From assembly GCA_025055175.1 (NCBI GenBank), contig JANWYT010000018.1, positions 1 through 39,859 on the forward strand: a DNA stretch of 39,859 bases. Direction: 5' to 3'. The stretch comes from Anaerolineae bacterium. GTDB taxonomy: Bacteria > Chloroflexota > Anaerolineae > Aggregatilineales > Phototrophicaceae. This document shows, piece after piece, positions 28,871-39,859 of the stretch. The number at the start of each line of letters is the position of its first letter. The first letter of the stretch is position 1. The notes under the pieces are model-generated. The model saw only the letters and a list, made by a program, of their open reading frames with translations. It did no database searches and was not told the origin of the DNA. A program made the translations under genes and the position numbers.

Positions 28871-29764
28871 GTGGAGACATTACGCGGTGCAGTCTACGGA
28901 TTATCAGCGGCGTCTATCTGGGGAGGCATGTACGTCGTCTCAGATGTTGTGCTAGACACCATTCCGCCTTTCAGCCTGCTGACGCTGCGCCTGCTGCTGG
29001 GGGCGCTGGTGCTGGCCTTGCTGCGCTTGGGCCAGAGTGGCAACCCAGAGGGCCTGAAATTGCCTGGCGCGCGAGTCGTACGCTATCTAGGCGTAGGCTT
29101 GGTCGGGTTCGGCTTCAGCCTGGGGGCGCAGTTCGTCGGCACTGCGTTGTCGACTGCCATCAACGGCGCGCTCATCACCAGCGCTTCGCCGGCCTTCATC
29201 TTACTCTTCGCTGCCTTGCTGCTGCGCGAACGCTTGCAACCAGTTCATCTGACAGCCATCAGCTTGGCGACAATCGGCGTGCTAGTCATCATCAACCCCG
29301 CTCAAGCCGAACTGGGTGGCCCGAACTTCCTGGGCGACGTTGCCCTGGCCATAGCTGCGCTCACTTGGGGTCTGTACAGCGTGCTGGCCCGCCTGGTGGG
29401 GCGCAGCGGCGATACGCTGCTGGTGACGCTCTATGCCTTGATCGGTGGGTTGTTCGTCACCATCCCTGCTTCGTTCATCGAACTCGCGGCAAACCCCGTC
29501 GACACAAACCAGATTGATCTATCCGTCATTTTAGGCGTGCTTTATCTGGGGATTGTCTCAACCGCTGGCGCGATGTGGCTCTGGAATCGGGCCTTTGCCC
29601 TGGTGGCAGCCAGCACAGCGTCGCTGTTCTTCTTCGCGCAGCCACTGGTGGGCGCGCTGCTGAGCGTGGCGCTGCTGAGCCAAGCTATGACCAGCGCGCT
29701 GTGGCTTGGCTCGGCGTTGATTGTGTTGGGGGTGTTGATCGCTCTGGTGAGTAGGCGCGCATGA
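28871..29764 (+). CDS. EamA/DMT family transporter
   Basis: The gene starts at a GTG at 28871 and encodes 297 residues with about ten hydrophobic helices in two EamA repeats. The first repeat begins A-A-S-I-W-G-G-M-Y-V-V-S-D-V, the second with A-L-A-I-A-A-L-T-W-G-L-Y-S-V. Proteins of this superfamily export amino acids, nucleosides or other metabolites. No specificity can be given. It overlaps the next gene by 4 bases (ATGA), so it is translationally coupled to the ROK-like protein. Confidence 0.9.
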   Translation: METLRGAVYGLSAASIWGGMYVVSDVVLDTIPPFSLLTLRLLLGALVLALLRLGQSGNPEGLKLPGARVVRYLGVGLVGFGFSLGAQFVGTALSTAINGALITSASPAFILLFAALLLRERLQPVHLTAISLATIGVLVIINPAQAELGGPNFLGDVALAIAALTWGLYSVLARLVGRSGDTLLVTLYALIGGLFVTIPASFIELAANPVDTNQIDLSVILGVLYLGIVSTAGAMWLWNRAFALVAASTASLFFFAQPLVGALLSVALLSQAMTSALWLGSALIVLGVLIALVSRRA

Positions 29765-30552
29765 GCCAGCCCTTGCTGGTGGCCTGCATTGACCTGGTCG
29801 GCGTGCAGGCGCACCTGGTTGAAGAGGGGACGAGCGCGCTGGAACATCACAGCAGCTCTGATGGCATGATGCTACAGACGTTACACCAAGCCATAGACGG
29901 CCTTCTGGCCCAGTGCGACAATGCGCCGCGTGCTGTGAGCGTGTGCCTCAGCGGCCTAGTTGACCCAAACCGAGGGATCATCCTGGACGCGCGCCGCGTC
30001 TTATGGCTGGACTTGCCGCTGGCAGAATTCGTCAGCACTCAATACGACCTGCCCGTTTGTGTGGATAACGAAGCGGCTCTCATCGCGCGCGCCCTCGACC
30101 CACAGGGGCAGAAGCGCCTGGTCGTGCTGCACAGCAATCCTTTTTTGGAGGTGGGTCTGGCCCTGAGAGGCCAATACCATCACAGTCTGGAGCTGCCCTC
30201 GGTGTCGCTGCTGAGCGTGTTACCCCCCGCCGCGCCACCCCTGACTTGCGCTCTCGCTCTGCGTCGGATGGGGTTGCGCCGAGACAACGCCGACGAAGAC
30301 GCTCTAGACAGGCTGGACACGCTCAGTCAAGACCTCAGCGAGGTGATGTTCTGGGTCATCCATCTGCTGCGCCCCGCTGAAATTTGGCTGAGCGGTTGGC
30401 TGAGCGACATTGGCTCGCCCCTGCTGGAGCAGCTTAATCGGCGCTTACTCAATGACATGCCAGAACATGCCTCCTGTTCTCTTCACCTGGCCAACACAGA
30501 TGAACTGCGCCTGCGCGGCGCTTGGTTACACGCCCTGGCGCGCGGCCTGTAG
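29761..30552 (+). CDS. Degenerate ROK family protein (probable pseudokinase sensor)
   Basis: The 263-residue protein aligns by eye with ROK sugar kinases and regulators: V-S-V-C-L-S-G-L-V-D-P-N-R-G-I-I-L then L-P-V-C-V-D-N-E-A-A-L. Key positions are altered. The phosphate loop D-x-G-G-T is D-L-V-G-V-Q. The catalytic-Asp motif N-D-x-N-A is N-E-A-A-L. The glycine-rich mid-domain loop is lost, and no C-x-C zinc motif is present. It also lacks the helix-turn-helix of NagC-type regulators. I infer a ligand-sensing or scaffold role rather than phosphorylation. It is coupled to EamA upstream and precedes the LacI-like sensor by 10 bases. Confidence 0.65.
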   Translation: MSQPLLVACIDLVGVQAHLVEEGTSALEHHSSSDGMMLQTLHQAIDGLLAQCDNAPRAVSVCLSGLVDPNRGIILDARRVLWLDLPLAEFVSTQYDLPVCVDNEAALIARALDPQGQKRLVVLHSNPFLEVGLALRGQYHHSLELPSVSLLSVLPPAAPPLTCALALRRMGLRRDNADEDALDRLDTLSQDLSEVMFWVIHLLRPAEIWLSGWLSDIGSPLLEQLNRRLLNDMPEHASCSLHLANTDELRLRGAWLHALARGL

Positions 30553-30562
30553 GAGTTATGCT

Positions 30563-31357
30563 GTGGCCGAGTCTGTGATTGCCCTCATCTCCGTTTGTGG
30601 AGCTGAACTCACCCATAAAGCCCTGAGCGAAGGGATAGCCGCTCACCTAACTCAGATAGGTAGTTACAGGCTTATGCCGCTCAGTTTGGCTGAGCTGAGC
30701 GACGTCCACGTCGACGGCGGAATCAGCCTGGGAAGCATTCATTCGGGCTGGGTTAGCCCCGATCATCTGCGCGCCTTGCGGGCCGCAGTGCCACTGCTCA
30801 CGCTCGTCCAATACTCTTCGCGAGAAGCGCCCAGCGTCTCGTTCCATTTAGACGCCATGCTACACCGCGCCGTCGCCGACTTAGTGCAGCGCTGTGGACG
30901 CCGCCAAATCGCCTTGCTCAGCCATGCATACAGCACCTTCAGCCATCAGGCCGAGGGAGCATTCCAGCGCGCCATGCTGCGCCACAACCTGCTCATCGCT
31001 CCTGAGTGGCTCATCCATGCACATTCTGACCCAGAGTCGGTGGTGGAGGCCCTGGGAGCTTTTTTGGAGGCCGGCGGAGCGCTTGACGCCTTGCTGACAA
31101 CTAGCACGCCCGCCGCCCTAGTCGCCCTCAAGGTACTCAAGGCTCATCGGTTGCGCGTCCCGCGCGATGTGTGCGTGATGGGCTTTGAGAATAGTCCCGC
31201 CGCACACCGAGTCGGGCTGACCACCTTCGCCAGCGATTGGCAGGCGCTCGGCCACCGCGCCGCCCGTCAACTCGTCGCACAACTGCGCCACGGCCCGCTC
31301 GTGGGCCAAACGCTCATCGATGCGCCGCTCATCCAGCGCAGCACTTGCCAGCCCTAA
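30563..31357 (+). CDS. LacI/GalR-type ligand-binding domain protein without a DNA-binding domain
   Basis: I choose the GTG at 30563, 7 bases after AGGAG; longer in-frame starts lie inside the previous gene. The 264 residues match the periplasmic-binding-like effector domain of LacI regulators: C-G-R-R-Q-I-A-L-L-S, R-D-V-C-V-M-G-F-E-N-S and L-T-T-F-A-S-D-W-Q-A-L-G-H-R-A-A. The N-terminal part goes straight into the first beta strand (V-I-A-L-I-S-V), so the 55-60 residue helix-turn-helix is missing altogether. It could be a soluble sensor or partner of the ROK-like protein, or a regulator that lost its DNA-binding part. Confidence 0.75.
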   Translation: MAESVIALISVCGAELTHKALSEGIAAHLTQIGSYRLMPLSLAELSDVHVDGGISLGSIHSGWVSPDHLRALRAAVPLLTLVQYSSREAPSVSFHLDAMLHRAVADLVQRCGRRQIALLSHAYSTFSHQAEGAFQRAMLRHNLLIAPEWLIHAHSDPESVVEALGAFLEAGGALDALLTTSTPAALVALKVLKAHRLRVPRDVCVMGFENSPAAHRVGLTTFASDWQALGHRAARQLVAQLRHGPLVGQTLIDAPLIQRSTCQP

Positions 31358-31388
31358 TTGTCCACACTGCTCTGCAAGGAGAGGAAGC

Positions 31389-32429
31389 ATGTCCACATCT
31401 CATCTGGCCCAGGAAATCGCCCAACAGCCCACTGTGATTGCGCGCCTACTGGCGGAGAACAGCCCTCAAGTGGCTCGCGTCGCCCAGGCTATCCGCGATT
31501 TCAACCCGACCTTCGTCGCCATTGCAGCGCGCGGCACGTCAGACAACGCAGCGCGCTATGCCCAGTACGCCTTTGGCGTGTTGCTGGGCCTGCCCGTCAT
31601 GCTGGCTGCCCCATCGCTGCACACCATCTACCAAGCACCGCCCAATCTAGCTCGCGCCCTGGTGATCGGCATTTCGCAGAGCGGTCAGGCAGAAGATGTG
31701 CGCCGCGTCTTGCAAGACGCCCGCCAACAAGGCGCGCTGACGCTGGCCATCACCAACTACCCCGACTCGCCGATGGCCCAGACCGCTATTCATCACCTGG
31801 CCCTGCTGGCCGATGAAGAGGTGAGCATTGCCGCCACCAAGACCTACACCGCTCAGCTCACGGTGCTGGCTATGCTGGTCAACGCCCTAGCGGATCGTCC
31901 TCATCTGCGCGACGAATTGAGCCAAGTCCCCCGCCTCGTCCAAGAGACCCTAGACTTGAGCGCCAATATCGCCGACTGGGCCGAGCGCTACCGCTACATG
32001 GAGAAATTCGCAGTGCTGGGGCGCGGCTACAATTACAGCACTGCTTTTGAAATCAGCCTCAAAGTCAATGAGCTGGCCTACATCGCCACGACAGCTTACA
32101 GCGAAGCCGACTTTAGGCATGGCCCAATCGCGATGGTGCAGACGGGCTTTCCCGCGCTGCTAATTGCGCCGCAAGGCGCGCTGCTGGACAACATGCGCGA
32201 CCTAGCCGAGAAGTTGAGCGAACGCGGCGCTGAGCGTATCGTCATCAGCAACGATCCAACCATGCTGGCCTATGGCCACAAGGTTGTGCGCGTGCCAGAG
32301 GTTGCCGAGTGGCTCTCTCCCCTCATTTGCGTGATACCGGGCCAAATCTTCGCCATGCACCAGGCTCTCACGCGCGGCTACCCCGTCGATAAGCCGCGCG
32401 GCCTGAGCAAGGTGACGATCACCGAATAG
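31389..32429 (+). CDS. SIS domain sugar isomerase/deaminase (GlmS C-terminal-like, AgaS/FrlB-type)
   Basis: The ATG at 31389 follows GGAGAGGAAG and gives 346 residues with two SIS domains. SIS1 has A-I-A-A-R-G-T-S-D-N-A-A-R-Y, then I-S-Q-S-G-Q-A-E-D-V, the phosphosugar loop. S-I-A-A-T-K-T-Y-T-A-Q-L follows. SIS2 has V-L-G-R-G-Y-N-Y-S-T-A-F-E, and E-A-D-F-R-H-G-P-I-A with the isomerase histidine. The glutaminase domain of GlmS is absent, so it should act on a sugar phosphate or an amine-adduct sugar rather than use glutamine. With the ROK- and LacI-like sensors before it, an amino-sugar or glycated-amine catabolic role is plausible (inference). Confidence 0.88.
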   Translation: MSTSHLAQEIAQQPTVIARLLAENSPQVARVAQAIRDFNPTFVAIAARGTSDNAARYAQYAFGVLLGLPVMLAAPSLHTIYQAPPNLARALVIGISQSGQAEDVRRVLQDARQQGALTLAITNYPDSPMAQTAIHHLALLADEEVSIAATKTYTAQLTVLAMLVNALADRPHLRDELSQVPRLVQETLDLSANIADWAERYRYMEKFAVLGRGYNYSTAFEISLKVNELAYIATTAYSEADFRHGPIAMVQTGFPALLIAPQGALLDNMRDLAEKLSERGAERIVISNDPTMLAYGHKVVRVPEVAEWLSPLICVIPGQIFAMHQALTRGYPVDKPRGLSKVTITE

Positions 32430-32765: not shown

Positions 32766-34451
32766 TCAAGCTTGGCCAGACTGTTCCGCCAGCCACTTGT
32801 CGCGGTTCTTGGCGCGGCTGATCTTGCCGCTGCTGGTCTTGATGAGCCAGCCAGCCCCGACCAGCGTCACAAAATTGACCGAGACATCGGACGCGCGCGC
32901 CACCGCTTGACGAATGGCCTGCTTGATACGCTTGTGTTCCTGCGGATCGTCCGTATCGACTTCGGCCACGACGGCAATCAGTTCCGTGCCTTCCTCTTCG
33001 TCTGGCACACCAAAGACGACGGCGCGGCCAGGATGGACGCCCTCCACCCCGTTCACGATAGCCTCCAAGTCTTGAGGATAGACGTTCTTGCCAGCGTTGA
33101 TGATGAGGTCTTTGGTGCGCCCAATGACGTAGACCTGGCCATCAGCCATGTAACCTTTGTCACCGCTGTCGTACCAGCCCTCGGCGTCGAAAGGCCGCAA
33201 ATCAGGGCGCCGATAGTAGGCCATAAGCATACAGTCGCTGCGGATCATCAATTCGCCCACGTGGCGCTCTGGCAGGGGGCGGCCTTGCTCATCGACCACT
33301 TTCACTTCGCTGCCGACGATGGGCGCACCACACGACACCTGCGCCAGGGCTTGAGGCGAGTCGGGAGGCACAGGCAGGGCGCGCTGATCTTCCATCAGCG
33401 CGCGCCTGTCCACCCAGTCGATGTGCGGCGCTTGGCCAATGGGAGTCTGCGTCACTGCAAAGGTGTTCTCCGCCATTGCATAGCTGACCGTCAGCATGGA
33501 TTCGCGCAAGCCGTGCGGCGCAAAGCGTTCCAAGAACATAGCGTGGCTGTCGGCGCGCACTGGCTCAGAGCAGTTGACGAAGGCGCGCATACTAGCCAGG
33601 GACAAGCCTTCGCTGTCGGCGTGGCGCACGCGGCGCGCCATGTGGTTGTAGGCAAAGTTGGGCAGCCAGCACAGCGTCCCCTGGTGATTGTGGATGGCCC
33701 GCAGCAGCAGTGCGGGATGGCGCACCCAATCGAATGGAGACATCAGCACCAGGGGTAACCCCTGAAACAAAGGTAGAATGAAGCCCGCGATCAGGCCCAT
33801 ATCGTGGTAGAGCGGCAGCCAGCTCACGATGACGTCGCGTTCGCTCAGGGCCAGGGCGCTGGAATAGCTGGCCAGTTGATTGAGGACGCGCTCATGGGCC
33901 AGGGCTACGCCCTTCTGGAGGCCGGTCGTGCCGCTGCTGTGCTGCAAGAAGGCCACCTCATGGGGATCAGGGACGTAGCGCGGCGCTTCCCCTGTCCCTA
34001 CTTCGGCCAGCAGCGCCGTTGAGCCGTAGACCGAGCAGGTCACGCGCGGCGCAAGCTGAGCCGCGAAGTCGTCGGTCGTCAGGACGGCACGCACCTGCGA
34101 CAAGTTGACCAGTTCCGCGATGCTGGCCATGTAGAGCGCTGGATCGAGCTTCTCGGTGAGCGTGGGGAACATGGATGGAATCGCGCCCAACAGCAGCGCT
34201 CCCCAGAAGGCATAGACGCTCTCTAAGTTTTGCGTGTGCGCGATGATAACCAAATCGCGCGCAGCCATGCCCATCTTGTGCAACGCATAGGCGTAGGCGC
34301 GGGCGTGCTGGCGGAATTCGCGGCGCGTGATGACCTGGTCGGGGTGGCCTGTTTGCACCAGGATGAGCGCTGGCGCATTCTCGTCTGCTTCGGTCAAGAC
34401 GCGGGCGTGCAGTAGGTTGGGGAAGCGGGTGCGGGTATGTAGATTAAGCAT
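32766..34451 (-). CDS. Fatty-acyl-AMP-ligase-like adenylating enzyme (role of DltA in a Dlt-like pathway)
   Basis: The 561-residue ANL-superfamily enzyme has motif A3 L-Q-H-S-S-G-T-T-G-L-Q-K-G-V (169-182), S-W-L-P-L-Y-H-D-M-G-L-I typical of FAALs (210-221) and P-N-F-A-Y (264-268). A5 is Y-A-M-A-E-N-T (324-330) and A7 is W-Y-D-S-G-D-K-G-Y (426-434). A8 ends N-V-Y-P-Q-D-L-E (456-463), and the catalytic lysine lies in T-S-S-G-K-I-S-R (K543). FAALs form acyl-adenylates and hand them to a carrier protein rather than CoA. The carrier gene ends 4 bases upstream. The active site resembles acyl-acid ligases more than D-alanine:carrier ligases, so the cargo is probably a fatty or other carboxylic acid; this is inference. 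Confidence 0.9.
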   Translation of the reverse strand: MLNLHTRTRFPNLLHARVLTEADENAPALILVQTGHPDQVITRREFRQHARAYAYALHKMGMAARDLVIIAHTQNLESVYAFWGALLLGAIPSMFPTLTEKLDPALYMASIAELVNLSQVRAVLTTDDFAAQLAPRVTCSVYGSTALLAEVGTGEAPRYVPDPHEVAFLQHSSGTTGLQKGVALAHERVLNQLASYSSALALSERDVIVSWLPLYHDMGLIAGFILPLFQGLPLVLMSPFDWVRHPALLLRAIHNHQGTLCWLPNFAYNHMARRVRHADSEGLSLASMRAFVNCSEPVRADSHAMFLERFAPHGLRESMLTVSYAMAENTFAVTQTPIGQAPHIDWVDRRALMEDQRALPVPPDSPQALAQVSCGAPIVGSEVKVVDEQGRPLPERHVGELMIRSDCMLMAYYRRPDLRPFDAEGWYDSGDKGYMADGQVYVIGRTKDLIINAGKNVYPQDLEAIVNGVEGVHPGRAVVFGVPDEEEGTELIAVVAEVDTDDPQEHKRIKQAIRQAVARASDVSVNFVTLVGAGWLIKTSSGKISRAKNRDKWLAEQSGQA

Positions 34452-34455
34452 AAGC

Positions 34456-34707
34456 TCACCTGAAGTCGCGTAGGACGCGAGCCACCATCTGACGTAGAGT
34501 GTCCATCTTAGCTACCGTCAGATCAGGATCGGGGATGAACACGCCGAATTCTTTCTCGCAGAAGACGCCGACTTTGGCCAACGAGAAGGAATCCATCAAG
34601 CCGCCGCTGATAATCGGCTCGTCGTCGTCCAGCACGTAATCAGGATCGCGCATGATCTCCTGGGTAATATAGCGGCTCAGCTTAGCGCGCACTGTGACCT
34701 CGTCCAT
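34456..34707 (-). CDS. Acyl carrier protein (role of DltC)
   Basis: This 83-residue, acidic helical protein has the phosphopantetheine site in G-L-M-D-S-F-S-L (Ser40). It is followed by F-C-E-K-E-F-G-V-F-I-P-D-P-D-L-T, the usual helix II/III pattern of carrier proteins. The D-S-F context is the form common in DltC and modular carriers (D-S-L/F), where fatty-acid AcpP proteins also have D-S-L. It lies between the secreted SH3/FecR protein (9 bases) and the ligase (4 bases). It presumably carries the activated acyl group to the MBOAT protein encoded divergently. Confidence 0.92.
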   Translation of the reverse strand: MDEVTVRAKLSRYITQEIMRDPDYVLDDDEPIISGGLMDSFSLAKVGVFCEKEFGVFIPDPDLTVAKMDTLRQMVARVLRDFR

Positions 34708-34716
34708 GTCGTCTCC

Positions 34717-36096
34717 TCAGCGCCTCACGGCGGTGTAGTAGTAGGTGTGGTTGCACAGCGGGTCGTTATCATAGACCGTCGTCATGGTCATGCTCCAGGT
34801 GGACTCGCTGGTCAGGGTCAGCTCCAGCGATAACCTAGCATTGTTGAGGACATTGCGTCCACGATAGACGAACGTGTTCGGGCCAACGGGCTGCATTCTG
34901 TAGGGGACTGGTTCTTGGCCGCGCCAACTGATCGTGCCATCGGCATTGGGAGTGATGGCAGCCGGGTGTGAACAGGCTTCGATGGGTGGCGTGTTGCACG
35001 TGCCGCTGAGGACATCTGGGCCGCTGTCGGCCTGATAGATCACTGTCTGCGGCGCGAGGAAACTGTGGACGAAAACAGGCGCGCCGAGACGAGGTGTAGA
35101 ACGAGGGGCAGTCGTAGGCGCTTGGGCTGCTTGCGGCGCGCTCAGGTCGAACAGAGCCAGCGGCGCGCTCTGTACGACTTCAGCCACCCAATCAGCGCGC
35201 TCCAACGTCCCCTGCGCCAGCGAATCATCGCCGAGAGGGGCGCGCAGACTCTGGCGGGCGTTGGCGCTGGCGCTCTGACCCTCCAGCGCTGCCTGGACGC
35301 TGCCTTGCAACACGCTCAAGATCAGGCCTGCCTCTGGATCAGCGCGCACAATGAAGGCCGACGGGCCAAATTCCAGTGCCAGGCCGTTCAGCAGCAGGCG
35401 AGCCTGGGCCTGGTGCGGATTGCGTACCAGCAAACCGCTGGCCTGCCAATCGCAGGCTTCTTGCGCTTCGTCCAGGCTGAGGATGGCTTGCTGGAACGGC
35501 TCATCATAACTTGGGCCTGCTTCGGCCACTGGCAGCGCGCCAATCTGGCCGTCTAAGCGGACGAGGCGCGCGGCCACCCAAGCCGTGCCGAAACCGCCAC
35601 GGACGCGAACCCACTGGCTGTCAGCGCTGCGGCCATCAGCTACCAAACTTGCCTTATCGGGCAAGACCCCCACCTCGGCGAAATTCGTGCCGGGGCCGCG
35701 CCTCAGATTGACGGCGTAGCCGGCCGCATTGGTGGCTTGCATGGTGACGGGCGATGGCGCTTCGCTCTGTATAGCTCGCAGTGCCACGCCACCGTACAGC
35801 AGAAGGTCGATCCTGCGGCCTTCGCTCAGGCTCGCGTTCAAGCTCAGCAGAGCCAGGGGTGCGGTCATCTCCGAGTCTATCAGGTTGACAAGAGGCGTCT
35901 CGCTTAGGTTGAAGACGCCATCCTCAGTGCAGCCCTGGCCTGCGCTCAGCTCGGCGCAACGCGCACGCAATTCGTCGATGGCTTGAGCAGCAAAGAAAGG
36001 ACAAGCGGCGCTCTGGCCCTGAGACAAGCCCACACTCAGCACCAGCAGAGTTAGTGGCCAGAGCCTAAGCCCTATCCATATGTGACAATACCTCAT
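34717..36096 (-). CDS. Secreted SH3b- and FecR-like-domain protein
   Basis: I start at the ATG at 36096, behind GGGGAGAGG, giving 459 residues. A signal peptide (about 1-30) precedes a cysteine-bearing segment. A bacterial SH3 domain follows at about 125-185, with N-L-R-R-G-P-G-T-N-F and W-V-R-V-R. A FecR-like beta region comes next: L-N-G-L-A-L-E-F-G-P-S-A, S-V-L-Q-G-S-V-Q. The C-terminal 110 residues hold four cysteines in C-N-T-P-P-I-E-A-C and L-C-N-H. Such layouts bind cell-wall material or sense envelope state. It is the first gene of the transcript that includes carrier and ligase, so an accessory role in surface acylation is likely (inference). Confidence 0.75.
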   Translation of the reverse strand: MRYCHIWIGLRLWPLTLLVLSVGLSQGQSAACPFFAAQAIDELRARCAELSAGQGCTEDGVFNLSETPLVNLIDSEMTAPLALLSLNASLSEGRRIDLLLYGGVALRAIQSEAPSPVTMQATNAAGYAVNLRRGPGTNFAEVGVLPDKASLVADGRSADSQWVRVRGGFGTAWVAARLVRLDGQIGALPVAEAGPSYDEPFQQAILSLDEAQEACDWQASGLLVRNPHQAQARLLLNGLALEFGPSAFIVRADPEAGLILSVLQGSVQAALEGQSASANARQSLRAPLGDDSLAQGTLERADWVAEVVQSAPLALFDLSAPQAAQAPTTAPRSTPRLGAPVFVHSFLAPQTVIYQADSGPDVLSGTCNTPPIEACSHPAAITPNADGTISWRGQEPVPYRMQPVGPNTFVYRGRNVLNNARLSLELTLTSESTWSMTMTTVYDNDPLCNHTYYYTAVRR

Positions 36097-36184
36097 GACG
36101 ACCTCTCCCCTACCGAATGACATTTACTCGTGTATAGTATAGACTTGCCAATAACCTGACAAGACTATCCCGCAAGGATCAACC
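36097..36184. promoter_or_regulatory. Divergent promoter region of the acylation locus
   Basis: These 88 bases separate the minus-strand SH3/FecR-ACP-ligase unit from the plus-strand lipoprotein-SGNH-MBOAT unit and must hold promoters for both. The middle is AT-rich, with GTATAGTATAGAC (near 36135-36147) offering TATAGT/TATACT-like -10 elements on either strand. ATGACA at 36117-36122 may be a plus-strand -35. The two halves would thus be co-regulated. Confidence 0.4.
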
Positions 36185-36643
36185 ATGCGCCGAGTGTTCG
36201 CCTTCGTGACTTTGTGTTGGCTTGTCTGGACTGCACTGAGCGCGTGCAGTCCAGATCAACAAACCCAAGCGACGGCTGCCCCAGAAGCACTAGCTTCAGA
36301 AGCCACCCCTGAGCCTGCCGATCCATCTGTTGGAGACACACAGCACCCTGCAGCTCAGGCGGTCATCCGCTACCTAGAAGCGCGCGTCCGCGCGGACGCC
36401 GACACCATGCGCGAGTTAACCTGCGCTGCCGAGGAGAGTCGCGTCGTGACGCTGGCCTTGTCCTTCCAGGGGCGCGATGCCAAGCTGCTGGAAACCAAGT
36501 GCGGCTACGCAGACGAGGAGCGCGTCGTCTGCCAGGGCGGCATTTCCGCTAGTTATCAGGGCGAAGTTCGCACCTTCGACCTGCCCAACTACCGCGTAGT
36601 CTTAGAGGACGGCACATGGCGCGTGTGCGGCGAAGCACAGTAG
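36185..36643 (+). CDS. Lipoprotein of unknown function
   Basis: The 152-residue product has a signal peptide ending in the lipobox L-S-A-C (Cys21). A low-complexity linker rich in Ala, Glu, Pro and Thr follows (about 25-52). The last 95 residues form an alpha+beta domain, A-A-Q-A-V-I-R-Y-L-E-A-R at its start and D-G-T-W-R-V-C-G at its end. That pattern is common in small SnoaL/NTF2-like or DUF4878-type lipoproteins; I do not assign a family. It has three or more cysteines that may pair. It overlaps the SGNH gene by 28 bases, which places it firmly in the acylation operon. Confidence 0.7.
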   Translation: MRRVFAFVTLCWLVWTALSACSPDQQTQATAAPEALASEATPEPADPSVGDTQHPAAQAVIRYLEARVRADADTMRELTCAAEESRVVTLALSFQGRDAKLLETKCGYADEERVVCQGGISASYQGEVRTFDLPNYRVVLEDGTWRVCGEAQ

Positions 36644-37722
36644 GTTTGTTGATCCTGCTGCTGTGGACTATCGATGCACAGGCCCAGAGCTACCGCGCTA
36701 GTGTGCGCGAGCCGGCCGAATTGCGCGCAGGGCCTGGCTTCACCTATCTCGTCGTGGGGACACTCGCTCGGGGCGAGAGGGTACGAGTTATCGGACGGAA
36801 TCGCGTGGGTCACTGGCTACAAGTACGCAGCAACGCAGCCAGCGGTGCGCGCATAGGCTGGTTGCCCATCAACAAGCTGAGATTGCCCGATGACCTGCGC
36901 ATGAGCCGCTTGGCCATCCGCGACCTGCCCGACGCTGACCTGCAGCAGATAGAGGACGCTCTGGAGTCTGAGCTTCACGCTGTCTCAATTTTACCTACGA
37001 TAAGTCAAAAAATGTGCAACCATTACAACGCGGGGACGATTTGGGGCGATAGGCAAGCAGCGCGCGTGACTAAGATCGGCGACAGCAACAGCGTCTCTCC
37101 CGCCTATCTCACGCCGATCGCGCGCCAGGCCTATGATCTAGGGCCGTACGATGTGCTGAGCGCAGCGGTGGAATTCTTTGGGCCAAGTATGGGTGAGCCG
37201 AGCATAGCAGCGCAAGTAGGTTTCAACTCAGCTGCCGCTTTCGATCCCTTCTGGGTGAACAATCGCGCCTGTCGGCCTAACGAAGCTCCTTTGGATTGTG
37301 AGTTGCGTCTGAGCCAGGCCAGCATTGCGCTGGTGATGTTCGGCATCAACGACACGCAAGTCTTCAATCGTGCTGACTATGAGAACCAAATGCGTGCTGT
37401 CATCGAAACGATCCTACAAGCGCGCGCCCTGCCTGTGCTGATCGCCTTCAGCAGCACGCCATCTTTCGCTCAACGCCGCCAAGTCATTCACTTCAACCTC
37501 ATTAGCGCACGCTTAGCCCGCGAATATGACGTGCCTTTCATCAACTTCTGGGCCGCAGCCCAGGGCTTAAACAACGCAGGCATGAGCAGCGATGGCATTC
37601 ACCTCGCCTCTAATTTGCGCTTCGTCCTGGGCGGGCCAGAAGCGCGTCTGGGCATGACTCTGCACAATCTGCTCGTCCTCACCACGCTGGCAGAACTGCG
37701 CGCCACTTGCAGCGGGAGCTGA
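36616..37722 (+). CDS. Secreted SH3-SGNH hydrolase/acyltransferase 1 (candidate DltD-like transferase)
   Basis: This 368-residue protein has a signal peptide (1-24) and a bacterial SH3 domain (about 27-90) with E-L-R-A-G-P-G-F and G-W-L-P-I. The SGNH domain that follows has block I K-I-G-D-S-N-S (Ser157), a block III-like G-I-N-D (243-246) and block V D-G-I-H (Asp326, His329). The catalytic triad is intact. In Dlt and alginate/peptidoglycan O-acetylation pathways an exported SGNH-fold protein takes the acyl group from the MBOAT side and passes it to the polymer. The co-located MBOAT gene supports that role here over an esterase role. It is followed after 4 bases by a paralogue. Confidence 0.85.
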   Translation: MARVRRSTVGLLILLLWTIDAQAQSYRASVREPAELRAGPGFTYLVVGTLARGERVRVIGRNRVGHWLQVRSNAASGARIGWLPINKLRLPDDLRMSRLAIRDLPDADLQQIEDALESELHAVSILPTISQKMCNHYNAGTIWGDRQAARVTKIGDSNSVSPAYLTPIARQAYDLGPYDVLSAAVEFFGPSMGEPSIAAQVGFNSAAAFDPFWVNNRACRPNEAPLDCELRLSQASIALVMFGINDTQVFNRADYENQMRAVIETILQARALPVLIAFSSTPSFAQRRQVIHFNLISARLAREYDVPFINFWAAAQGLNNAGMSSDGIHLASNLRFVLGGPEARLGMTLHNLLVLTTLAELRATCSGS

Positions 37723-37726
37723 AGCA

Positions 37727-38797
37727 GTGCGTTGGCTCGCTTTGCTGCTGTTCAGCTTCAGCCTGGGGACGCTGTACGCTCAGGATTACTACGTCCAAAG
37801 CCTGCCTGCTGTCATCATCGCTGAACAGGCCATGCACCAATGGCCCGACGATCTAGCCGAACCTCTAGGCACTCTGGCGCTCGGCGCGTCCATCACCTTG
37901 ACGGGACGCGACTTGCGTGGCGCTTGGTTTCACGCTCAAACGCCCAGCGGCTCCCAAGGCTGGTTGCCACTGGATGCCATCGGCATTTTGCCTAACTTAT
38001 CGCTGCTGCCCGTTCAGCGCCTGGATTACGCCGAACTGTTGGATAGCGTGCTGTTCTGGAATTTTGGCCGCGAGATGGGCTGGCTCTACACCTACGGCCT
38101 GAGCCTGGGCAATAGCTCCAACCGCTTCGCTAAGATTGGCGACAGCATCACTGTCAGCCAGAATTTTCTCGCGCCTGTTGGGGAAGGCACGTACGACCTG
38201 ATGGGCTACAGCTACCTTGAAGCCACCATTCGGGCCTACCTCAGCGAAGGGCGCGCGAATTCCTTTAGCCGACTCTCAGCAGCGGCTGGCGTGGGCTGGA
38301 CTGCGGCCCAGCTCTTGCAGCCTGCCCAGAACATCAGCTGTCCCGATATGACGCGCTTGGCCTGCGAATACCTGCTCCACCGCCCCTCTGTAGCCCTCAT
38401 CACCATCGGCACAAACGACCTGAACTACGTGAACCTGGAGGATTACCTGGCCAACGTGCGCCGTGTCGTCGAAATTTCCTTCCAGATGGGAGTCATCCCC
38501 GCTTTGAGTACCCTGCCTGAACAAATCGACAAAAGCTTGCGCGTGCGCGTCTTCAACCAGGCGTTGTTCGCCCTGGCCGATGAGATGGACGTGCCGCTGT
38601 GGAATTACTGGCTGGTGAGCTACAATCTGCCCAACCGAGGACTGAACGCTGATGGTGTTCACCCCTCCGCTCCGCCTAATCGCGCCAGCGCAGCTACTTT
38701 CGACGCGGAGTCGCTCAAGTACGGTTACACCATGCGCAACCTTATGGCTCTACAGGCGCTCTATCTGTTGCGCGCCAACGTCATGAATCTACGCTAA
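37727..38797 (+). CDS. Secreted SH3-SGNH hydrolase/acyltransferase 2 (paralogue)
   Basis: A GTG at 37727 starts a 356-residue paralogue of the preceding protein. A signal peptide (1-19) precedes an SH3-like region (about 22-88, more diverged, ending G-W-L-P-L-D). The SGNH blocks are K-I-G-D-S-I-T (Ser140), G-T-N-D (228-231) and D-G-V-H-P (Asp309, His312). All catalytic residues are present in both copies, so both may be active. One may act as acyltransferase and one as esterase, or they may serve two acceptors. Only 4 bases separate the genes. Confidence 0.85.
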   Translation: MRWLALLLFSFSLGTLYAQDYYVQSLPAVIIAEQAMHQWPDDLAEPLGTLALGASITLTGRDLRGAWFHAQTPSGSQGWLPLDAIGILPNLSLLPVQRLDYAELLDSVLFWNFGREMGWLYTYGLSLGNSSNRFAKIGDSITVSQNFLAPVGEGTYDLMGYSYLEATIRAYLSEGRANSFSRLSAAAGVGWTAAQLLQPAQNISCPDMTRLACEYLLHRPSVALITIGTNDLNYVNLEDYLANVRRVVEISFQMGVIPALSTLPEQIDKSLRVRVFNQALFALADEMDVPLWNYWLVSYNLPNRGLNADGVHPSAPPNRASAATFDAESLKYGYTMRNLMALQALYLLRANVMNLR

Positions 38798-38830
38798 TGA
38801 CTACACGACACTGACACCGAAAGGCCGCTC

Positions 38831-38959
38831 ATGCGCTCCCTCTGGCAACAAATTGTCACTCGTGAAAATATGTTCGCTCTGGGCCTAGCGTTGCTCATCG
38901 TTGGCCTGGTCATTGTGACAACAGACAGCGCTCCGCAGTGGATTTATCAGGGGTTCTAG
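38831..38959 (+). CDS. 42-residue membrane microprotein with C-terminal W-I-Y-Q-G-F (DltX-like acyl shuttle candidate)
   Basis: An ATG at 38831 opens a 42-residue frame that ends 4 bases before the MBOAT start. Residues 1-13 are polar with R2 and R11, 14-30 are a single hydrophobic helix, and the tail ends W37-I-Y-Q-G-F42. By the positive-inside rule the N-terminus is cytoplasmic and the C-terminus outside. DltX, the microprotein of the Dlt pathway, has the same build. Its C-terminal hexapeptide (F-I-Y-x-x-F type, recalled from the literature) bears the tyrosine that is acylated by the MBOAT protein DltB and deacylated by DltD. Gene order next to MBOAT, spacing, size and terminal motif agree. 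A GAAAGG site lies upstream. Confidence 0.75.
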   Translation: MRSLWQQIVTRENMFALGLALLIVGLVIVTTDSAPQWIYQGF

Positions 38960-38963
38960 GCTG

Positions 38964-39859
38964 ATGGAACTGGGACAAATCGCGGTCTTTGTGGGCTTTG
39001 GCCTGGCCTACGCTTTGCTCATCCCTAGACAGTGGCGTGCCTGGGCCTTGTTCCTGGCCAGCCTGCTGGCTATGTACTGGCTTCAACCCACCCTGAGCAT
39101 ACGCTGGCTGGATTACAGTCTACCGACGGGAACGCTAGCCCTGGCCTGTGTAGGCTGGTGGCTGACGCGCGGCAAGGAACAGACTTTCAGTCGCCAAGAC
39201 GGCCTAGCGCTGCTGCTGGCTTTGGGAGTCGTCGTGCTGTTGGCTCTGGCGCGCTACGTCGACATACCGTCCGCTCTGCGCTTGACCAGCCGCCCACCAG
39301 AACTCGGCGGGGTGCTGCTGGCCCTGGCTCTGCTGTTCGGCCTGGTCTGGGCAGCCCATCGGCTGGGAAGAGGCCACTCATGGCCGCTCCTAGTGGGACT
39401 GCTGGCCTTGCTGGCCATCTTCATCGTCGTCAAGATGCCCGCTCTGGCTCAGGCCCTGGCCGCTGTGCTACGCGCTCAGGCTGGGCAGGACGCAGCCCTT
39501 GCCTCAGCGCTGGACGTGGAGTGGTTGGGCTTCTCCTATGTGGCCTTCCGCCTCATCCACACCTTGCGCGATCGGCAGATGGGCCTGCTGCCTGACCTAT
39601 CGCTGCGCGACTACTTGACCTTCGTCATCTTCTTCCCTGCCTACACCGCCGGCCCTATCGACCGTGCCGAGCGTTTCCAAGCTGATGTGTTGGCTTTGAC
39701 TGCCCTGCATGGCTGGGATGCCGCGCGAATCAGCGAAGGTCTAGGGCGAGTTGCTGTCGGTATGGGCAAGAAGTTCATCTTGGCCGACAGCCTGGCTTTG
39801 ATCGCCCTCAACAGCCAAAACGCTGCTCAGGCTCAGGGGGCTGGCGGCCTGTGGCTCAT
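38964..39859 (+). CDS. MBOAT family membrane O-acyltransferase, N-terminal 298 residues (role of DltB; truncated by window edge)
   Basis: The frame is open from the ATG at 38964 to the last base. Six or more hydrophobic helices precede the family block W-L-G-F-S-Y-V-A-F-R-L-I-H (187-199). D-Y-L-T-F-V-I-F-F-P-A-Y-T-A-G-P-I-D-R follows (216-234), ending in the G-P-I-D-R signature shared by DltB and AlgI, and then G-K-K-F-I-L-A-D (268-275). The catalytic histidine expected further on lies outside the window. MBOAT proteins move an acyl group from a cytoplasmic thioester donor across the membrane. The carrier protein, ligase, microprotein and SGNH genes alongside supply the other steps. Confidence 0.93.
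   Translation, partial: MELGQIAVFVGFGLAYALLIPRQWRAWALFLASLLAMYWLQPTLSIRWLDYSLPTGTLALACVGWWLTRGKEQTFSRQDGLALLLALGVVVLLALARYVDIPSALRLTSRPPELGGVLLALALLFGLVWAAHRLGRGHSWPLLVGLLALLAIFIVVKMPALAQALAAVLRAQAGQDAALASALDVEWLGFSYVAFRLIHTLRDRQMGLLPDLSLRDYLTFVIFFPAYTAGPIDRAERFQADVLALTALHGWDAARISEGLGRVAVGMGKKFILADSLALIALNSQNAAQAQGAGGLWL

Follow-up and report, generated by a model that had tools for sequence, protein, structure and literature searches.

The right end of a 39,859-nucleotide stretch from an Anaerolineae bacterium (contig JANWYT010000018.1 of assembly GCA_025055175.1, the whole of it called here the window) raises the question of whether the Dlt type of surface acylation can be run by a loader other than a D-alanine ligase. 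In the Dlt pathway the D-alanine carried by DltC is transferred through DltB onto a tyrosine in DltX, from where DltD delivers it to the polymer (PMC12148441). An initial annotation of the window had proposed that all these roles were occupied here, and indeed a ligase, a carrier, an MBOAT protein, a microprotein and SGNH proteins are all present, so every Dlt role is filled. We consider it rather probable that they make up a transmembrane acylation system of the Dlt kind: a ligase of the fatty acyl-AMP ligase (FAAL) type would load a carboxylic, probably fatty, acid onto the carrier for a surface polymer. The window is the complete contig C9 of a 3.38-Mb assembly in 37 contigs, estimated to be 89% complete. 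The open reading frames of the ligase, the carrier, an SGNH pair, the microprotein and the MBOAT lie where the annotation had placed them.

The loader is the ligase (561 aa, 32766-34451, minus strand), predicted to take the DltA role. It carries the motifs SSGTTG, HDMGLI, PNFAY, YAMAE and SSGK. Against NCBIfam, fatty acyl-AMP ligase models scored 230-347 bits, compared with 109 bits for the amino acid adenylation domain; the top match was NF005850, a long-chain-CoA-ligase subfamily (367 bits), and no NCBIfam cut-off was reached. The first 15 PDB matches are, by their names, what we take to be FAAL structures or similar acyl/adenylate ligases. The alignment extends over nearly the whole length of FAALs such as FadD32 and the Legionella structure 3kxw, and runs ungapped through a stretch that is presumably the FAAL-specific insertion. 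Judged by these comparisons, the ligase is more related to FAALs than to other adenylating enzymes. With the DltA model TIGR01734 it reached 53.5 bits for a cut-off of 559.85, a value exceeded by no protein in the window's incomplete genome and in 2 of 14 control genomes. The loader had been described as an acyl-acid ligase rather than an obvious D-alanine ligase, and this stands, FAAL models and structures being the nearest and the DltA cut-off far from reached. A plasmid search with the ligase gave as best match a protein annotated as hypothetical in a Leptolinea sp. HRD-7 record (45% identity).

Next to the ligase, as also in relatives, is the predicted acyl carrier protein in the DltC role (83 aa, 34456-34707, minus strand), with its serine in a DSF motif. 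It matched Pfam PP-binding weakly (E 0.014, below the cut-off), its best NCBIfam match was an ornithine-lipid carrier (37 bits, below the cut-off) and the DltC model gave 14.3 bits for a cut-off of 68. FAALs are described as feeding polyketide synthases (PKS), nonribosomal peptide synthetases (NRPS) and lipid assembly (PMC11837247). In the window's genome no NRPS condensation domain passed the cut-off (a single match, 19.2 bits for 30.6), and the four ketosynthase-family matches were in frames of 388 to 482 aa. Because of the gene order and co-occurrence described below, and because neither an over-cut-off condensation domain nor a ketosynthase frame above 482 aa was found, the ligase probably feeds the MBOAT, as far as other clients can be eliminated in an incomplete genome. 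Regarding the cargo, we weighed the FAAL literature (PMC8460268, PMC11837247, PMC11751314); according to PMC11837247, how long a chain a FAAL takes cannot be confidently predicted. The neighbours were tried as another source of information about the cargo. Three relatives (L056, L069 and L072) have one gene each inserted among SGNH3, carrier and ligase, by eye a membrane protein, a beta-lactamase-like protein and an alpha/beta hydrolase, and none of them indicates a cargo; L051 has a gap of about 0.6 kb.

The predicted acyl shuttle, in the DltX role, is a microprotein of 42 aa (38831-38959, plus strand) with one helix and the C-terminal motif WIYQGF, in which the tyrosine is Tyr39. The motif was present in 28 of 31 aligned homologs and in all 120 homologs among the matches listed. 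Compared with the DltX-like FxYxxF, the tyrosine and the final phenylalanine are kept and the first phenylalanine is replaced by tryptophan. Of 7994 candidates scored for the family, 5120 matched. None of the 120 homologs listed carries a Pfam domain, and those that their source names are hypothetical proteins. Nothing in the genome passed the DltX cut-off (Pfam PF12459, 25 bits), the one match (12.7 bits) being located elsewhere, and the microprotein found no match among PDB sequences at E 10.

Four bases downstream begins the DltB-like MBOAT (38964-39859, plus strand), of which the window contains the first 298 aa, with the reported GPIDR starting at residue 230. The window being a whole contig, the gene is cut by the contig end. 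The sole Pfam MBOAT match in the genome, at C11:1-429, corresponds to the C-terminal part absent from the window, and the frame continues to C11:516 (locus L002). In 40 of 42 loci of the same family the spacing between the two matched parts of the MBOAT was exactly 36 bases (the other two could not be measured by this method), and for this reason C9 and C11 would adjoin with about 36 bases missing. The catalytic histidine expected beyond the window is there: the continuation holds WHMSL and WHG, and in the comparison of the relatives' profile with PDB sequences, where DltB was the only match, both histidines fall on DltB His289 and His336. This numbering was counted on the alignment and agrees with the residues named in PMC11035591. 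All 16 MBOAT relatives compared with NCBIfam at E<=0.001 matched TIGR04091 (DltB) only, one of them listed with 229 bits for a cut-off of 375. A fused C-terminal shuttle motif (FxYxxF-like) was found neither in the 38 MBOATs called from 40 loci nor in the C11 continuation.

The DltD role had been assigned to the two SGNH proteins of the window. SGNH1 (368 aa, 36616-37722) and SGNH2 (356 aa, 37727-38797), both on the plus strand, have the triad motifs GDS, GxND and DGxH (at 155/243/326 and 138/228/309, respectively), and their N-termini look exported by eye, as had been stated. SGNH proteins are thus present, but these two vary between relatives, and a third one outside the window seems the more likely DltD candidate. 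SGNH3 (387 aa, C11:513-1676, locus L002) lies directly downstream of the MBOAT, whose frame end it overlaps by 4 bases, and carries GDSSTWG and a conserved NEP. In the predicted model of a relative (L075) the N-terminus forms a long helix; the SGNH3 model could be aligned to three DltD structures over 265-268 residues (VIA-align). Among the 50 Foldseek matches listed for this model there was no DltD, and by sequence SGNH3 gave no usable match in the PDB.

We scanned 98 genomes of the same family (MBOAT E<=1e-10, microprotein E<=0.01 and, for the ligase, a threshold of our own choice, E<=1e-120) and found the MBOAT in 44, the microprotein in 44 (best match in each <=2e-18) and the ligase in 43. 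MBOAT and microprotein were common to 43 genomes, G019 having the MBOAT without the microprotein and G046 the reverse, at a contig end. The microprotein therefore accompanies the MBOAT in 43 of the 44 MBOAT genomes. MBOAT and ligase were common to 41, so the ligase is not always apart from the other half of the system: it was alone in two genomes (G028 and G035), and three had the MBOAT and no ligase at the cut-off (G003, G016 and G097, with part of a ligase at contig ends in G003 and G097). Leaving out the genus g22, whose 34 genomes have no MBOAT, microprotein or ligase, Fisher tests that ignore relatedness gave 4e-14 for MBOAT and microprotein and 6e-11 for MBOAT and ligase.

Gene order was counted in 42 family loci; the window and G029, where the MBOAT is split over two contigs, are added only where said. 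In 39 of the 42 loci (41 of 44 with the window and G029) the microprotein precedes the MBOAT on the same strand at a distance of <=260 bases, and SGNH3 follows the MBOAT in 35 of the 42. The ligase belongs to the MBOAT locus in 23 loci: 18 times downstream behind SGNH3 and the carrier, four times upstream and once divergent (a ligase-like match with 26% identity in L034 was not counted as FAAL). The one-strand order microprotein-MBOAT-SGNH3-carrier-ligase appears in 17. In L052 (from G059) the microprotein is about 7 kb from the MBOAT, and the locus also has a further, partial copy that ends with the motif (L052:2165-2281, 2902-2952). Among 23 loci of named species (titled Chloroflexi or Anaerolineae, or of taxa that we place there), 18 had the microprotein and 12 the ligase; some of these repeat family genomes (e.g. 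L075 and L054), so the two sets of loci overlap. The named relatives support the Chloroflexota (Anaerolineae) host suggested in the initial annotation. In Leptolinea tardivitalis YMTK-2 the genes are split between two loci, microprotein and MBOAT in L083, and ligase and carrier, about 3 kb from each other, in the second. In the class as a whole, 120 genomes drawn evenly (microprotein E<=1e-6, ligase E<=1e-120) contained the microprotein in 24 cases, one of them a match with an internal stop (G116), the ligase in 23 and both in 21, over seven families. The presence of the MBOAT across the class was derived from 20 fetched microprotein loci outside the window's family, 18 of them with an MBOAT and 10 with the ligase. 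In this wider sample L178 repeats the divergent arrangement of the window. The genes within each unit of the window are separated by 4 to 33 bases, or overlap by 28 bases. Because of this close spacing and the recurrence across genomes, the set is more than a group of chance neighbours.

As a control we examined 57 distant MBOAT loci from many phyla (L097-L153). A fused shuttle motif was found at the end of the MBOAT in 48 of them, and seven had a carrier or ligase nearby, of the kinds for which we searched (L097, L099, L102, L112, L115, L133 and L153). L097, titled Clostridiales, has ligase, carrier, SGNH protein and a microprotein ending in FQYVGF, a set that looks like Dlt. In the Acidobacteria locus L099 (9590-12887) a fused-motif MBOAT adjoins a carrier and a ligase 59% identical to that of the window; by eye this ligase is without the stretch read as the FAAL-specific insertion. 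In the Bacteroidetes locus L133 a fused-motif MBOAT is preceded by a FAAL-type ligase and by a frame that looks by eye like a carrier. Since both loci pair a FAAL-type ligase with a fused-motif MBOAT, FAAL-type loading seems coupled to MBOATs of both architectures. Peristeroidobacter L153 (15300-18524) has a fused-motif MBOAT followed directly by the frame of an adenylating enzyme (74 bits with the FAAL profile). Two more Acidobacteria loci, L112 (9653-15097) and L115 (9824-15665), combine a fused-motif MBOAT with a carrier match and a frame that by eye resembles a ketoacyl synthase III, and they may represent a further carrier-fed MBOAT system. Small frames ending in FIYIAF (L098:10858-11037), FIYMNF (L113:12076-12264), FIYVAF (L119:12060-12224) and FIYVDF (L124:3547-3657) are near MBOATs without the fused motif, and the profiles detected no carrier or ligase near these four. 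Separate microproteins may thus also occur in systems that no carrier feeds.

From these genes we infer each chemical step of the relay, its cargo and its acceptor. The ligase would convert an acid and ATP into acyl-AMP and pass the acyl group to the phosphopantetheine arm of the carrier, which would dock at the inner face of the DltB-like MBOAT. By means of its two histidines the MBOAT would then transfer the acyl group onto the microprotein's Tyr39, the WIYQGF end reaching the outer face. From the acyl-tyrosine the group would go to the serine of a membrane-anchored SGNH3, which would esterify a surface glycan. SGNH1 and SGNH2 could act as secondary transferases or as esterases that remove the group; the SH3 protein and the NTF2-like lipoprotein, both described below, might hold the machine or the polymer at the wall. 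A more specific version, which we put forward tentatively, is that fatty acids are exported by the tyrosine relay, FAAL and carrier feeding the MBOAT with a medium- or long-chain acyl group that would be carried on Tyr39 and esterified to a wall-linked polysaccharide.

Several observations weigh against the proposed relay. The fatty cargo is something we infer from the family of the ligase. Among the residues through which DltB contacts DltC (Met302, Val305, Ile306, Met309, Lys312 and Arg317, named in PMC11035591), the MBOAT profile keeps only Lys312. The best structural match of SGNH3 is CgnD and not DltD, and the usual DxxH spacing is missing, with TDSPVH in the window's genome and often TNSAIH in relatives. 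Of the 42 family loci, seven showed no SGNH3 and 19 no ligase near the MBOAT, though many of the contigs are short. To these must be added the exceptions in co-occurrence, which are the ligase without MBOAT in G028 and G035, the MBOAT without microprotein in G019 and, in the class sample, the ligase without microprotein in G107 and G200 and the reverse in G116, G172 and G211.

The loci without a nearby ligase would also fit the idea that the ligase and its carrier work in a different lipid pathway and just happen to adjoin an MBOAT and microprotein that use acyl-CoA or another donor, as would the ornithine-lipid match of the carrier and the microproteins beside MBOATs without a visible carrier (L098, L113, L119 and L124). 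We regard this as quite improbable, given the 41 family genomes where ligase and MBOAT are found together, the 21 class genomes of seven families with ligase and microprotein, the operon order and a genome without over-cut-off NRPS condensation domain or long ketosynthase frame. The same relay might instead transfer a short or substituted non-amino acid (short-chain or hydroxy), that is, a small modification rather than a fatty one. The characterised MBOAT/SGNH pathways named in PMC12148441 do move acetyl or D-alanyl groups, and the poor predictability of FAAL chain length leaves room for it; but among named proteins the ligase is closest to fatty acyl-AMP ligases, and nothing that we found indicates any particular small acid, which makes this version unlikely. 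A divergent true Dlt system adding D-alanine to a polymer would account for the complete set of roles, the DltB-like MBOAT and the alignment of the SGNH3 model to DltD structures. It is hardly credible with the DltA, DltC and DltX models all below their cut-offs and with no TagF-like enzyme (PF04464) in the window's incomplete genome.

The Dlt-like relay that we favour has parts in common with three known systems. It shares with the Dlt system of Gram positives a ligase, a carrier, an MBOAT without fused motif, a microprotein ending in aromatic-x-Tyr-x-x-Phe and a membrane-anchored SGNH protein, often in one operon in the relatives. It differs in the FAAL-type ligase, in a carrier, microprotein and SGNH3 below the cut-offs of the Dlt models, in the extra SH3 and SGNH proteins and lipoprotein, and in its Anaerolineae host. 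By its parts the set would work like Dlt, but since the defining Dlt family tests gave negative results it is, on the sequence evidence, not Dlt. MBOAT, SGNH partner and shuttle tyrosine are also found in PatA/PatB and in AlgI-type acetylation, PatA forming acetyl-tyrosine in its own fused motif (PMC12148441). There the MBOAT itself bears the motif at its C-terminus; in the window a separate microprotein bears it, and the set includes a carrier and a ligase. According to this 2025 PatA/PatB study, MBOAT/SGNH pathways other than Dlt have neither carrier nor DltX-like microprotein. Since the set of the window has both, it is, by gene content, an exception to that statement. The ligase is related over nearly its full length to FAALs such as FadD32 and 3kxw; unlike those described in PMC11837247, which are tied to PKS, NRPS or lipid assembly, it is linked to an MBOAT export set. 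We found no report of such a set in the literature, in a search whose coverage was without most subscription journals.

Between the two halves of the set are the accessory genes. A secreted-looking SH3 protein (468 aa, minus strand, 34717-36123, or with a start perhaps at 36096) has few matches in relatives. The distance between the divergent units, given as 88 bases in the initial annotation, is correct with the start at 36096 and becomes 61 bases from 36123. SH3 domains had been attributed to the DltD-like proteins; Pfam finds one in SGNH1 and none in SGNH2, and another in the 468-aa protein. The lipoprotein (152 aa, 36185-36643, plus strand), missing from that annotation, has an NTF2-like predicted fold by Foldseek, with no function named; 18 of the 42 family loci have it <=400 bases upstream of their MBOAT. 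To the left of the set (29761-32429) there are, by eye, a ROK-family sugar kinase, a LacI-type regulator and a SIS sugar isomerase, related to sugar uptake and with no link seen to the acylation genes. SGNH3 is followed on C11 by a possible surface protein of 2263 residues (L002:1986-8777), in which PKD-like repeats can be made out by eye.

If the relay works as proposed, Dlt would be one branch of a more general scheme whose cargo depends on the loader, and ester linkage to tyrosine could be a way for a fatty acid to pass a membrane. Leptolinea tardivitalis, a named strain with microprotein, MBOAT, ligase and carrier, makes a bench test possible. Should the export of fatty acids turn out to be true, these bacteria would have a lipidated, hydrophobic surface polymer, and MBOAT/SGNH acylation would have, besides Dlt, a second branch that uses both a carrier and a microprotein.

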